Shown: piece by piece, positions 4,534 through 55,743 of the stretch
How positions within the stretch are numbered: the first letter of the stretch is position 1
Layout: every line of letters begins with the position of its first letter
From: Prevotella melaninogenica
GTDB lineage: Bacteria; Bacteroidota; Bacteroidia; Bacteroidales; Bacteroidaceae
Assembly: GCF_003609775.1 (NCBI RefSeq)
Contig: NZ_AP018049.1
Coordinates: forward strand, 1,550,001-1,614,000
Direction of reading: 5' to 3'
DNA length: 64,000 bases
The notes under the pieces: model-generated
Database searches by the model: none
Told to the model about the DNA's origin: nothing
What the model saw: only the letters and a program-made list of their open reading frames with translations
Translations under genes and position numbers: made by a program

Positions 4534-4780
4534 TTGAAATATATTTACAAATAAAGTTTGCTTTCAATAAAAAATAAGACAAAAAAGAGCTACTAAATCT
4601 GCACTTGTAACTAACAAGAATTCAAGTACTTACAAAACGGTGCGAGAAAAGGTGCTTAGTTAGGCTTCAAAAGGGCGTTAGTTAGCCTCTAAAAGGGCAT
4701 CTTTTACAAGCCAATTGGGCGTCTTTTCGAAGCTAAAAGAGCATCTATCAAAACTCAAGGTGTGAAAAATCATGACAAAG
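4534..4780 (+). repeat. Dispersed ~245-bp repeat, copy 1
   Basis: This segment aligns in the same orientation with 13193-13440. Shared words include GTAACTAACAA, ACTTACAAAAC, AAAAGGGCGTTAGTTAGC, AAAAGGGCATCTTTT and AGCTAAAAGAGCATC. The copies differ at scattered positions and by small indels. No transposase or open reading frame is present in it. Confidence 0.8.
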
Positions 4781-4784
4781 TAGC

Positions 4785-4897
4785 AGACTATTAGCCCTAT
4801 TAGGCTTATTAGTCCTATTAGCCTAATAGGGCTAATAGGGCTAATAAAAAATATTAGGCTAATTGGCCTAATTAGCCATATTAGCCCAATTAGGTCT
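4785..4897. repeat. Cluster of TTAGCC/GGCTAA inverted words
   Basis: About ten overlapping copies of ATTAGCC or GGCTAAT occur within about 110 bp, mixed with CCTATTAG and CTAATAGG. They can form many alternative hairpins. Related clusters lie at 17034-17092 and 24642-24677. Confidence 0.75.
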
Positions 4898-13192: not shown

Positions 13193-13440
13193 TACTGAAA
13201 TTTATTTACAAAACAAAGGGTGTTTTTATCTAAAAAAGGGGCCAAAAGGGGTCATAAAAACCACACTCGTAACTAACAAATAATCAAAGACTTACAAAAC
13301 AGTAAAACAAAAGGTGCTTAATTGGCTTTCAAAAGGGCGTTAGTTAGCGTCCAAAAGGGCATCTTTTCGAAGCCAACTGGGTGTCTTTTCAAAGCTAAAA
13401 GAGCATCAATTAAAAATCAAGATGTGAAAAATTATTACAA
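13193..13440 (+). repeat. Dispersed ~245-bp repeat, copy 2
   Basis: This is the partner of 4534-4780 in the same orientation. Together the two copies bracket the glycan operon. A 62-codon open frame inside this copy is not present in copy 1 and is not a gene. Confidence 0.8.
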
Positions 13441-18991: not shown

Positions 18992-19375
18992 CTTGATAGT
19001 TTATGGTTATATACTAACTGCAAACTTACACATTTTTTCTGAGATTAAAGGATAAAAAGACTATAAAAGAAGATAACAAGAACAGATGATACTCCTATCA
19101 AATACAAGAACAGTTTTATTTGCTTTGAGTAGTATAACTCTTCCTAACAACCATCTAACGTTACTTTTCCGACTCCATATTGCAGTGGTGTTAAGCCTCC
19201 GCACTATTCGTGCTAAGCCTTCGCACCAATGGTGTTGAGCCTCCGCACATCAATAGAAAACAAACCGAAAAAACCTTATCTACTATCAGGACAGATACAA
19301 TTAACTACTAATTACTTACAAAGACGAGTACTACTCATAGACTAACTATAATGGTACGAAGCGTAATGATACTGA
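18992..19375. other. Intergenic region with a 22-bp array
   Basis: This gap of about 380 bp lies between pyrE and the end of comF. It holds the CAC-N5-GTG array at 19182-19248 and otherwise AT-rich sequence with no gene. Confidence 0.75.
19182..19248 (-). repeat. 22-bp CAC-N5-GTG tandem array, copy 1
   Basis: There are three units, the first 3 bp shorter. The dyads GCAC-TATTC-GTGC and GCAC-CAATG-GTGT are separated by spacers such as TAAGCCTTC and TGAGCCTCC, and a truncated GCAC ends the array. By its spacers this copy runs opposite to the three others (36153, 43925 and 55495). Confidence 0.8.
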
Positions 19376-22591: not shown

Positions 22592-22636
22592 GATGAAATG
22601 GCATCCATTCAGTACTACAAAACGGCTAAAAACAAT

Positions 22637-22723
22637 TTATCTTCATGAAAAAAAGAATTTCTTTTCATGAAGATAAATATTTATTTTCACGACAAAAAAT
22701 ATTTCTTTTCATGAAAATAATTC
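22637..22723 (+). repeat. 87-bp TTCATGAA array, copy A
   Basis: Four units of exactly 22 bp (the last is 21 bp) have cores CTTCATGAA, TTTCATGAA, TTTCACGAC and TTTCATGAA, and the array ends in AATAATTC. It lies between the convergent genes ribD and cyuA. Confidence 0.9.
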
Positions 22724-26662: not shown

Positions 26663-26674
26663 ATCTTTTTATAG

Positions 26675-26755
26675 TTGACAAGTTAACGAGTTGACGAGTT
26701 AACAAGTTATATCTTTTTATAGTTGACGAGTTAACAAGTTGACAAGTTAATCGCT
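26675..26755. repeat. GTTGACAAGTTAAC array, copy 1
   Basis: This is a tandem run of GTTGACAAG, TTAACGAG, TTGACGAG and TTAACAAG words, in two blocks around ATATCTTTTTATA. It is related to the GTCAAC/AACTTG arrays at 31787-31918, but on the opposite strand. Confidence 0.75.
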
Positions 26756-31702: not shown

Positions 31703-31786
31703 ATGTTTTTCTCAGAGATAAACGTGTTTTTTCCTTTTATTGTTGCTTTTCATTTCTCCAATAATCTCATGTGTCTCAAAAGCAAG

Positions 31787-31918
31787 TAACTTGTTCACTC
31801 GTGAACTTGTCTACTTGTCAACTCCAAAACAAGCAACTTGTACACCCGTGAACTTGTCTACTTGTCAACTCCAAAACAAGCAACTTGTTCACACGTAAAC
31901 TTGTTTACTCGTCAACTA
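31787..31918. repeat. 47-bp AACTTGT/GTCAAC tandem array, copy 2
   Basis: Three repeats of about 47 bp, the last shorter, each contain CAACTTGT, a variable CAC-type centre, GTGAACTTGTCTACTTGTCAAC and CCAAAAC in pieces. The array ends 17 bp before the start of the RluA-type gene and may supply its -33 region. Confidence 0.85.
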
Positions 31919-36146: not shown

Positions 36147-36226
36147 GTGTTTAACACCATTGGTGTTTACCATCAGCACCACATGTGCGAAGCATCAGCA
36201 CCATACGTGCGGAGCACCAACACATC
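36147..36226 (+). repeat. 22-bp CAC-N5-GTG tandem array, copy 2
   Basis: Units at 36153, 36175 and 36197 read ACAC-CATTG-GTGT, GCAC-CACAT-GTGC and GCAC-CATAC-GTGC, with spacers such as GAAGCATCA. A partial fourth unit ends at 36226. Confidence 0.85.
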
Positions 36227-37401: not shown

Positions 37402-37769
37402 ATCATATATAGAATTAATTTCACTTGCAAATATAAATAAAAAGAAGGATAACAAGCGACAGAATACAGCTTTTATTATCACTAAATTGTATGTGTTTAC
37501 TAACCAAAAAGAAGGTAGCGCAATAGCACAACAGGCTTCTCCTGCGAATTATTTTCATGTAAAAAAGAATTTATTTTCATGAAGATAAATATTTATTTTC
37601 ACGACAAAAAATATTTATTTTCATGAAAATAATTCGGAAAGCATGGTCTTTACTTGTTTATATCGTTACTTTTAATTACTTTTACAGCCATAGGAAAGGA
37701 TAGAATCGATAGTTAATAATAAAACGAAAGAGGCTCTCCATAAATCGTAATCACATAAAGTATCAGCAC
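37402..37769. other. Intergenic region with TTCATGAA array
   Basis: This gap of about 370 bp lies between two minus-strand genes. Apart from array copy C (37549-37635) it is AT-rich and I see no gene. Confidence 0.75.
37549..37635 (+). repeat. 87-bp TTCATGAA array, copy C
   Basis: Four units at 37549, 37571, 37593 and 37615 are the cleanest of the set. The flanks are perfect inverted repeats: CGAATTATTTTCATG on the left and CATGAAAATAATTCG on the right. Confidence 0.92.
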
Positions 37770-43910: not shown

Positions 43911-43979
43911 CGTGTTGATGCTGCGCACGAGTGGTGCGAACGCCCAACACATATCGTGCGGATGGTAAACACCAATAAG
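43911..43979 (+). repeat. 22-bp CAC-N5-GTG tandem array, copy 3
   Basis: The units read GCAC-GAGTG-GTGC with spacer GAACGCCCA, then ACAC-ATATC-GTGC with spacer GGATGGTAA. Incomplete dyads lie on both sides (GTGTTGATGCTGC and ACACCAATAAG). Confidence 0.8.
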
Positions 43980-44109
43980 AATAATGGTTATATCTATAGA
44001 AGATTATTAACAGTGGAAGGCGAAAATAACCATTAAGAGCATAAATAGCAAAGCCACTTAACACCACCTCTCATGGCTTTTACGACTATTATACCCTATC
44101 TCCTGCGAA

Positions 44110-44196
44110 TTATTCTCATGAAGAAAAGAAATTATTTACATGAAAAGAAATATTTATCTTCACGAAAAAAAATATTTATTTTCATGTAAATAATTT
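44110..44196 (+). repeat. 87-bp TTCATGAA array, copy D
   Basis: Units at 44110, 44132, 44154 and 44176 have cores CTCATGAA, TACATGAA, TTCACGAA and TTCATGTA. It has the same TCCTGCGAATTATT left flank as copy C. Confidence 0.9.
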
Positions 44197-50300: not shown

Positions 50301-50390
50301 TTTTATAATAGCCTTTAACGACCTCAAAACATAGTCTAATCCTGCTCCTCCAAGCCTTATCTACTACCCCAACAAATCTTCTGCTCCAAA

Positions 50391-50477
50391 TTACTTTCAT
50401 GAAAAGAAATAATTATTTTCACGAACAGAAATATTTATTTTCATGAAGAAAAATATTTTTCTTCATGAAAAGAATTC
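50391..50477 (+). repeat. 87-bp TTCATGAA array, copy E
   Basis: Units at 50391, 50413, 50435 and 50457 have cores TTCATGAA, TTCACGAA, TTCATGAA and TTCATGAA, and the array ends AGAATTCGG. It lies between convergent genes (HU and the outer membrane barrel gene). Confidence 0.92.
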
Positions 50478-55481: not shown

Positions 55482-55566
55482 GTGTTATTGGTCCGCACCA
55501 ATGGTGCGAACGGCAAACACCAATGGTGCGGATGCTCAGCACCAATAGTGTGGAGAATATAACACC
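55482..55566 (+). repeat. 22-bp CAC-N5-GTG tandem array, copy 4
   Basis: Three full units start at 55495, 55517 and 55539: GCAC-CAATG-GTGC, ACAC-CAATG-GTGC and GCAC-CAATA-GTGT. A half unit precedes (GTGTTATTGGTCC) and another follows (AACACC). Confidence 0.88.
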
Positions 55567-55636: not shown

Positions 55637-55743
55637 CTCCCCTCTCCTTTCGGAGAGGGGTCGGGGGTGAGGCTATCTCTCTTTTGGTAGGGGTTGGGGG
55701 TGAGGCTATCTCTCTTTTGGTAGGGGTTGGGGGTGAGGCTGCC
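55637..55743 (+). repeat. 33-bp GC-rich tandem array
   Basis: A CCCCTCTCC-TTTC-GGAGAGGGG hairpin is followed by TCGGGGGTGAGG and two nearly exact 33-bp repeats containing TATCTCTCTTTTGG and TAGGGGTTGGGGGTGAGGC. Each unit has G-runs GGGG and GGGGG, which could form G-quadruplex structures. Confidence 0.85.

Follow-up and report, generated by a model that had tools for sequence, protein, structure and literature searches.

Rows of 22-bp-phased dyads in Prevotella melaninogenica: candidate sites for a putative dimeric DNA-binding protein

Four arrays of small dyads in the window

The window, the whole stretch of 64,000 nucleotides analysed here from a Prevotella melaninogenica genome (G000 in the comparisons below), carries four short arrays of 22-bp units in gaps between genes. 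An earlier note on this DNA had described them as fixed dyads around a variable centre, with RCAC followed after exactly five bases by GTGY, and the letters agree: all 10 complete dyads of the window fit the pattern, the 22-bp period holds within each array, and the eight centres that had been named (CAATG, TATTC, GAGTG, ATATC, CACAT, CATAC, CATTG and CAATA) are all present. Overlapping pairs of the form CACN5GTG-N11-CACN5GTG occur 6 times in the window, and 60 simulated first-order sequences of 64 kb gave 0.0 on average. The arrays are as follows, with the centre of each complete dyad in brackets.

19188..19248, no strand: Array 1, RCAC-N5-GTGY; complete dyads 19202-19212 (TATTC) and 19224-19234 (CAATG); half dyads GTG 19188-19190 and CAC 19246-19248
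36155..36223, no strand: Array 2, in the convergent gap 3' of metG; complete dyads 36155-36165 (CATTG), 36177-36187 (CACAT) and 36199-36209 (CATAC); half dyad CAC 36221-36223
43912..43972, no strand: Array 3; complete dyads 43926-43936 (GAGTG) and 43948-43958 (ATATC); half dyads GTG 43912-43914 and CAC 43970-43972
55482..55565, no strand: Array 4, the array under study, 3' of the Melibiase_2 (GH27) gene; complete dyads 55496-55506 (CAATG), 55518-55528 (CAATG) and 55540-55550 (CAATA); half dyad GTG 55482-55484

An in-register half dyad GTG opens three of the four arrays, the left GTG of Array 2 (at 36147) being six out, and an in-register half dyad CAC closes three of the four, the exception being Array 4, where the right half CAC at 55563-55565 is one base out of register. 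The array at 19182 had been said to face the opposite way to the other three. By majority of the spacers this holds (+++ compared to 0--, +-- and +--), but two of the latter three give mixed scores.

The genes named as neighbours are backed by Pfam for metG, secDF and Melibiase_2 (GH27), but the gene called pyrE shows a phosphoribosyltransferase domain only. Array 1 lies 5' of the pyrE-like gene and 3' of another phosphoribosyltransferase-domain gene (Pfam). Array 3 is 3' of secDF, by 404 bp, and 5' of a Phos_pyr_kin gene, by 74 bp.

Other tandem repeats are found in the window as well. Just 3' of Array 4, a 33-bp unit (AGGGGTTGGGGGTGAGGCTATCTCTCTTTTGGT) is repeated 2.6 times with 98% matches (55656-55740), and 47-bp and 16-bp repeats with GTTCACACGTGAAC and AGTTGACAAGTTAACA words occupy 31777-31917 and 26673-26750.

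Arrays of 22-bp units across the chromosome and the genus

The genome comprises 3.09 Mb in 3 contigs, two of them of 1.74 and 1.34 Mb. A genome-wide search for the paired pattern at the 22-bp period finds it at 274 places, far more than had been noted, and finds its reversed control at none. A sample of 864 kb (the window and 40 stretches of 20 kb, with 712 ORFs) was studied in detail and holds 58 arrays of this kind, called family A, with 2-4 dyads each. They are found on both large contigs, and never two in one gap among the 228 gaps of at least 200 bp. None of the 58 falls within an ORF that has 100 codons or more, and three overlap an ORF end, by 3, 41 and 43 bp. By the direction of the flanking genes, the arrays lie in ++ (18), -- (13), +- (13) and -+ (11) gaps, the remaining 3 being at a stretch edge without a gap type; as a share of gaps of at least 200 bp, this is 18/71, 11/63, 11/47 and 10/47, respectively. 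This placement of family A is the pattern of neither a terminator nor an operator.

The dyads have further structure. In a profile of 149 dyads, in which CAC and GTG are invariant because the search fixes them, the base before CAC is R and the base after GTG is Y in almost all, and the N5 centre is non-random, favouring NANTN (A 0.64, T 0.74). The spacer consensus is GTG-YKRA-N3-TYMR-CAC. Beyond the end dyads, 57 of 116 array ends carry a weaker half dyad with an in-register GTG, and the outer halves of the end dyads read CGGA at 46 of 116. The spacers have a direction because their halves differ, and it is all + in 20 arrays, all - in 15, mixed in 9 (with + always to the left of -) and unscored in 14. 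Agreement between neighbouring scored spacers is seen in 26 of 35 cases, so that direction is not claimed to be an end effect.

The genes beside the arrays share no common theme, as far as 114 neighbours in the sample (short ones judged by eye) and the 8 window neighbours with Pfam can tell, so no regulon backs the binding-site idea. Two of these neighbours look like helix-turn-helix (HTH) proteins (L080:12088-12681 and L085:9530-9841). The Bacteroidota promoter word, TAnnTTTG, is not enriched in array-bearing gaps (2.61 compared to 2.84 per kb).

Family A is one of several families with this period. In a self-similarity scan of intergenic segments at each lag from 8 to 60, the 864 kb gave 80 segments at lag 22, followed by lags 44 (32), 14 (13) and 9 (11), and 3 at lag 23. 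Nearly all lag-22 segments belong to family A, family B (built around TTTTCATGAAAA) or family C (CAAAAGGGC / AAAAG-N5-CTTTT). The window holds the following arrays of families B and C.

22628..22720, no strand: family B array, 22-bp units around TTTTCATGAAAA
30615..30698, no strand: family B array
37549..37632, no strand: family B array
44108..44193, no strand: family B array in the secDF gap, where P. jejuni also has one
50389..50474, no strand: family B array
4647..4746, no strand: family C array, 22-bp units with CAAAAGGGC / AAAAG-N5-CTTTT
13308..13398, no strand: family C array

The dyad of family B has a centre of 2 bp, and family C is only partly dyadic in this genome. Dyad symmetry at p<0.05 is seen in 48 of 79 arrays of the genome, compared to 16 of 123 control pieces, so the controls exceed the nominal 5%. 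The families also tend to exclude each other. Among the 228 gaps of at least 200 bp, 50 hold family A, 19 family B and 31 family C, and two families share a gap only once, in the secDF gap of the window, where 13.5 (sd 2.7) shared gaps would be expected with gap length held; none of 5000 permutations went as low as 1. Some 22-bp-phased array is present in 101 of the 191 gaps of at least 250 bp, and none of the 47 divergent gaps that reach 200 bp holds family B.

By eye, family C is embedded in a larger dispersed element, very roughly 170 bp in length, whose recurring outer words are ATCAATTAGTTATAAAG ... AAAATAGTTTACAA (L051:17172, L058:13730, L073:417 and others). Words of 9 bp (CTATTAGCC / ATTAGCCTA) are tandemly repeated beside the first family C array of the window, at 4788-4894. 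Two further 22-bp arrays, L046:14222-14323 (around AAGACAAAGTAACAGGGTAAGG) and L074:949-1033 (around TACTAATTTGTCGC), show no obvious dyad.

Other genomes of the genus have the same geometry, in part with other letters. Family A pairs number 274 in G156, as in the genome of the window, 267 in G170, 245 in G372, 144 in G334, 82 in G287, 76 in G404 and 50 in G238, the matches listed being of the form GCAC-N5-GTGC. Overall, 114 of 398 genus genomes have the pattern, 18 with at least 6 pairs and 96 with 1-4, a level at which the reversed control rings in many genomes. Among 22 named genomes, P. denticola has 62 pairs, P. multiformis 42, P. jejuni 35 and P. histicola 22, five others have 1-4 and 13 have none. 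Family B pairs are most numerous in G334 (139), G372 (71), the genome of the window (63), P. jejuni (49), G170 (30) and G156 (29), with 1-17 in six more genomes and 0 in 20 of 32. The pattern AAAAG-N5-CTTTT-N7, derived from arrays of P. histicola and P. brunnea, gives 457 pairs in P. histicola, and 85 and 55 in P. brunnea and P. bivia, respectively; the reversed control has no match in these three. None of the other 29 genomes exceeds 7 pairs, and in G334 the reversed control itself rings 17 times.

Among 15 genomes, pairs of a further family, TCAYCRYGRTGA, number 25 each in P. veroralis and P. vespertina and 2 in P. histicola; it has an array in the secDF gap at about the same distance as family B. 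Its arms match each other in nearly every listed unit (by eye) and in 7 of 7 units of the fetched loci, TCACC going with GGTGA and TCATC with GATGA (P. veroralis G424, P. vespertina G425), unlike in families A and B. This matching could reflect unit ancestry or structure.

The period itself reaches beyond these letter sets. One stretch from each of 20 other genus genomes (354 kb, three stretches being shorter than 20 kb), chosen among genomes with no family A match, gave 14 lag-22 segments in 8 genomes and at most 1 at any other lag except 44 (4). Of 35 secDF surroundings of Prevotella or Hoylesella type (368 kb), 11 hold 13 lag-22 segments; P. koreensis, H. marshii and P. ihumii are in both sets. 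Outside the genus, 43 secDF loci of other Bacteroidota (430 kb) gave 0 such segments, and 20 genomes belonging to the order's other families (273 kb, with every second stretch a short one) gave 1 and no peak. The arrays of other species are dyadic in 27 of 43 cases at p<0.05 (19 at p<0.01), with letters that differ by species. As a conserved slot for arrays, the secDF gap was rejected: 7 of 26 named loci carry a 22-bp array there, a rate no higher than the general one, so slot conservation is not claimed.

Three single observations can be added. A gap that measures 54 bp in the genome of the window (L085:1860) has 427 bp in G334 (L226:9010-9437) and holds a TACCAAGGCTTTGTA array of 22-bp units there, which is possibly the footprint of an array's arrival. 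The one family A pair of P. corporis (G427:C12:6766) is identical over 33 bp to G156:C1:73803, with horizontal transfer or contamination as possible explanations. Finally, the reversed pattern GTG-N5-CAC, phased at 22 bp, matches 25 times in G032 and may be a further letter set of the 22-bp class.

Change in arms, centres and flanks

Orthologous arrays reveal which parts of the unit are kept. The arrays stay in place between species: one is present in the orthologous gap in 12 of 13 cases for G170 and 6 of 7 for G156, the single absence being the same array, and in 12 of 12 and 7 of 7 in the reverse direction. Fifteen arrays of G000 were aligned with their orthologs (12 in G170, 1 in G156 and 2 in G372), a sixteenth aligned locus, L050:1001, being left out as its ortholog lacks the array. 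The earlier note had set conserved centres with changing arms against its binding-site reading; the opposite was found, with changes at 0 of 228 arm bases, 32 of 190 centre bases and 402 of 1865 flanking bases. The R/Y positions changed at 13 of 76 and the remaining spacer at 33 of 304. Array lengths in the aligned loci differ by whole 22-bp units.

Finding arrays by their arms hides arm changes on the G000 branch, but not on the partner branch, on which alone, at half the flank rate, about 25 arm changes would be expected by our own estimate. With the arrays defined in the partner genomes instead, 6 of 246 arm bases, 41 of 205 centre bases and 384 of 1850 flanking bases changed. Judged from these alignments, the mirrored arms are kept by selection and the centre is free.

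At part of the arrays of P. jejuni, this constraint is lost. Six arrays could be compared with G000 on both sides (2 of 8, with one-sided matches, were left out), of which 2 are intact and 4 eroded, one of these partly deleted. The changes amount to 20 of 86 arm bases, 25 of 70 centre bases and 199 of 899 flanking bases. The ortholog of Array 3, in the secDF gap, is eroded, and the adjacent family B array is present.

One array has a particular neighbour. A family A array with units that contain TTTCACGTTGG abuts TGTTTCACGTGGAACA, a parS-like palindrome, at L048:13895-14005 (about 53.9 kb on G000:C1). parS is a TGTTTCACGTGAAACA-like site bound by ParB, and no such site appears in the family A profile of 149 dyads. 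P. jejuni keeps the parS-like palindrome beside this array (L048:13915) though the abutting array has eroded, which argues against ParB as the reader of the arrays.

Paired bases tell little of a hairpin. The R/Y pair is pairable in 196 of 234 dyads (195.9 expected) and the next pair in 101 of 234 (116.1 expected), and the spacer halves avoid complementarity (89 of 185 paired compared to 109 expected, and 67 of 185 compared to 91). Family B arms change without compensation. Two tests were nominally positive: for pair -1/11 in other species, 56 are paired where 52.5 would be expected (mutual information (MI) p=0.033), and for pair 3/7 across the pooled set the numbers are 89 and 85.3 (p=0.04). 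Also, the left and right ends of whole arrays do not covary, which argues against the array as one large inverted repeat.

Possible readers and the closest known systems

The arrays are probably rows of sites for a putative dimeric, sequence-specific DNA-binding protein whose specificity would drift while the geometry stays. The half site would be GTG with a loosely kept YKRA, two half sites facing each other across the free 5-bp centre. Since the dyads recur every 22 bp, or about two helical turns, the dimers would all face the same side of the double helix and may be able to bind cooperatively. Both the reading of the arrays by a protein and its dimeric state are what we infer.

An unlikely alternative is that the dyads are targets of a site-specific recombinase, the free centre being the crossover region and the changes by 22-bp units its products; the neisserial dRS3, ATTCCC(N8)GGGAAT, is reported as a phage integrase target (PMC3898611). 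Fixed arms around a free centre would suit such an enzyme, as would the gain and loss of whole units, but slippage explains the changes in unit number and the arrays stay put between species (12 of 13). For site-specific recombinases, 3-5 bp is also a short arm.

It is quite unlikely that the arrays are epigenetic marks made of bipartite methylation sites, although CAC-N5-GTG and AAAAG-N5-CTTTT resemble type I or IIB words. The unchanging arms, the free N5 and an adenine in each arm would fit, enzymes with symmetric N5 sites exist, and the genome of the window has 4 HsdS matches. However, HsdS counts do not track the arrays (P. brunnea has 85 AAAAG-N5-CTTTT pairs and 0 HsdS matches), the spacer too changes less than the flanks, and the centre of family B is 2 bp.

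Equally doubtful is the idea of mobile or satellite-like repeats without host function, a miniature inverted-repeat transposable element (MITE) or minisatellite like BrickBuilt. High copy number, intergenic position, lineage-specific letters, the longer dispersed element around family C and the 427-bp gap of G334 all point that way. Copying or homogenisation, though, would preserve the centres as well, and here they drift around unchanged arms; array positions are stable between species, and the genome of the window has no match to a Y1 transposase.

RNA elements, that is, hairpins with a conserved stem and a free loop that act in transcripts as terminators or protein-binding hairpins, are very improbable: the free centres, the absence of family B from divergent gaps and the matching arms of the TCAYCRYGRTGA family would suit them, but the stems are just 3-4 bp, family A is indifferent to gene direction, Rfam at gathering scores returned 3 tRNAs and nothing else, and without clear covariation of paired bases a hairpin is unlikely. 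The lack of clear covariation in both dyads and the indifference to gene direction fit a protein on DNA rather than RNA and, together with the kept arms, lend support to the binding-site reading of the earlier note.

For the putative dimeric protein, a chromosome-wide role would be in keeping with one family A array per gap, indifference to gene direction and the exchangeability of the families. Such a role may be architecture, insulation or the marking of long intergenic gaps rather than the control of single promoters. The other 22-bp families, here and in other Prevotella, would be the same device written in other letters, with relatives of the protein or altered forms of it as their readers.

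A search for a conserved regulator, as the earlier note had proposed, gave no candidate among Y1 transposases, ORF6N proteins, HsdS counts, paralogs and array neighbours. ORF6N proteins number 0 in the genome of the window and 1 each in G287 and P. histicola, HsdS was dropped as a lead to the reader as its counts do not follow the arrays, and no paralogous small DNA-binding family stood out from the 712 ORFs of the sample, with names judged by eye.

More tentatively, and less likely than not, the arrays belong to a genus-wide marking system in which co-evolving dimeric proteins read 22-bp-phased arrays. The geometry (two 5-bp arms around a free 5-bp centre, followed by a 7-bp spacer, or a second class with a 2-bp centre) would be conserved and the letters rewritten in each lineage; the families would be interchangeable and mutually exclusive, and arrays would decay when a lineage changes its reader. 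If the class is real, it points to a DNA-binding protein, probably abundant and quick to change its specificity, in one of the major genera of the human mouth and gut. Arrays that are kept in some species, erode in a neighbour and have other letters in a third would be a natural experiment in which the search for the protein is directly testable. High-copy extragenic dyad repeats are a known kind; to our knowledge, a class with genus-wide spacing and dimer geometry but turnover of letters would be new. No earlier description of the 22-bp arrays was found in the literature searched, most subscription papers lying outside it.

Among known systems, the neisserial dRS3/NIME elements are similar in having hundreds of fixed-arm, free-centre dyads, often in intergenic arrays. 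They are 20 bp long, form mosaics with RS elements and have the arms ATTCCC-N8-GGGAAT, whereas those of Prevotella are CAC and GTG with N5, and the accessible part of the source describes no 22-bp phase for them (PMC3898611). The REP/BIME sequences with their RAYT proteins, in the parts of the sources available (PMC3733652, PMC2817692, PMC3116915), are likewise high-copy extragenic palindromes, tandem in places and with lineage-dependent letters. REP is marked by a GTAG or CGTC tag and comes with a Y1 transposase, and the genome of the window shows neither: the 149-dyad profile has no such invariant tetramer, and PF01797 has 0 matches in G000 and in 14 of 15 other Prevotella-type genomes, with 1 in P. 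koreensis (G435). The tested defining features of REP/RAYT and dRS3 (tag, transposase, arm word) are thus not those of the Prevotella arrays.

BrickBuilt, a minisatellite-MITE of Porphyromonas gingivalis, is also intergenic, in Bacteroidales, with tandem units of similar length (23 nt). As far as the consulted part of PMC4596501 goes, it has 19 copies in one strain and a leader and tail with inverted repeats; the Prevotella arrays are many more, with 2-4 units in each of the 58 arrays, a period of 22 and not 23 bp, and selection on the arms. Family A array ends have an inverted half-site consensus in common, though left and right ends do not covary pairwise. CRISPR arrays differ in having long unique spacers between identical repeats, and here the centres are 5 bp and the spacers 11 bp, with many recurring. 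Plasmid iterons and parS clusters are tandem protein sites phased at about two helical turns, like the Prevotella arrays, which differ from iterons and centromeres in lying on both large contigs, with at most one family A array per gap and with letters that turn over between species.
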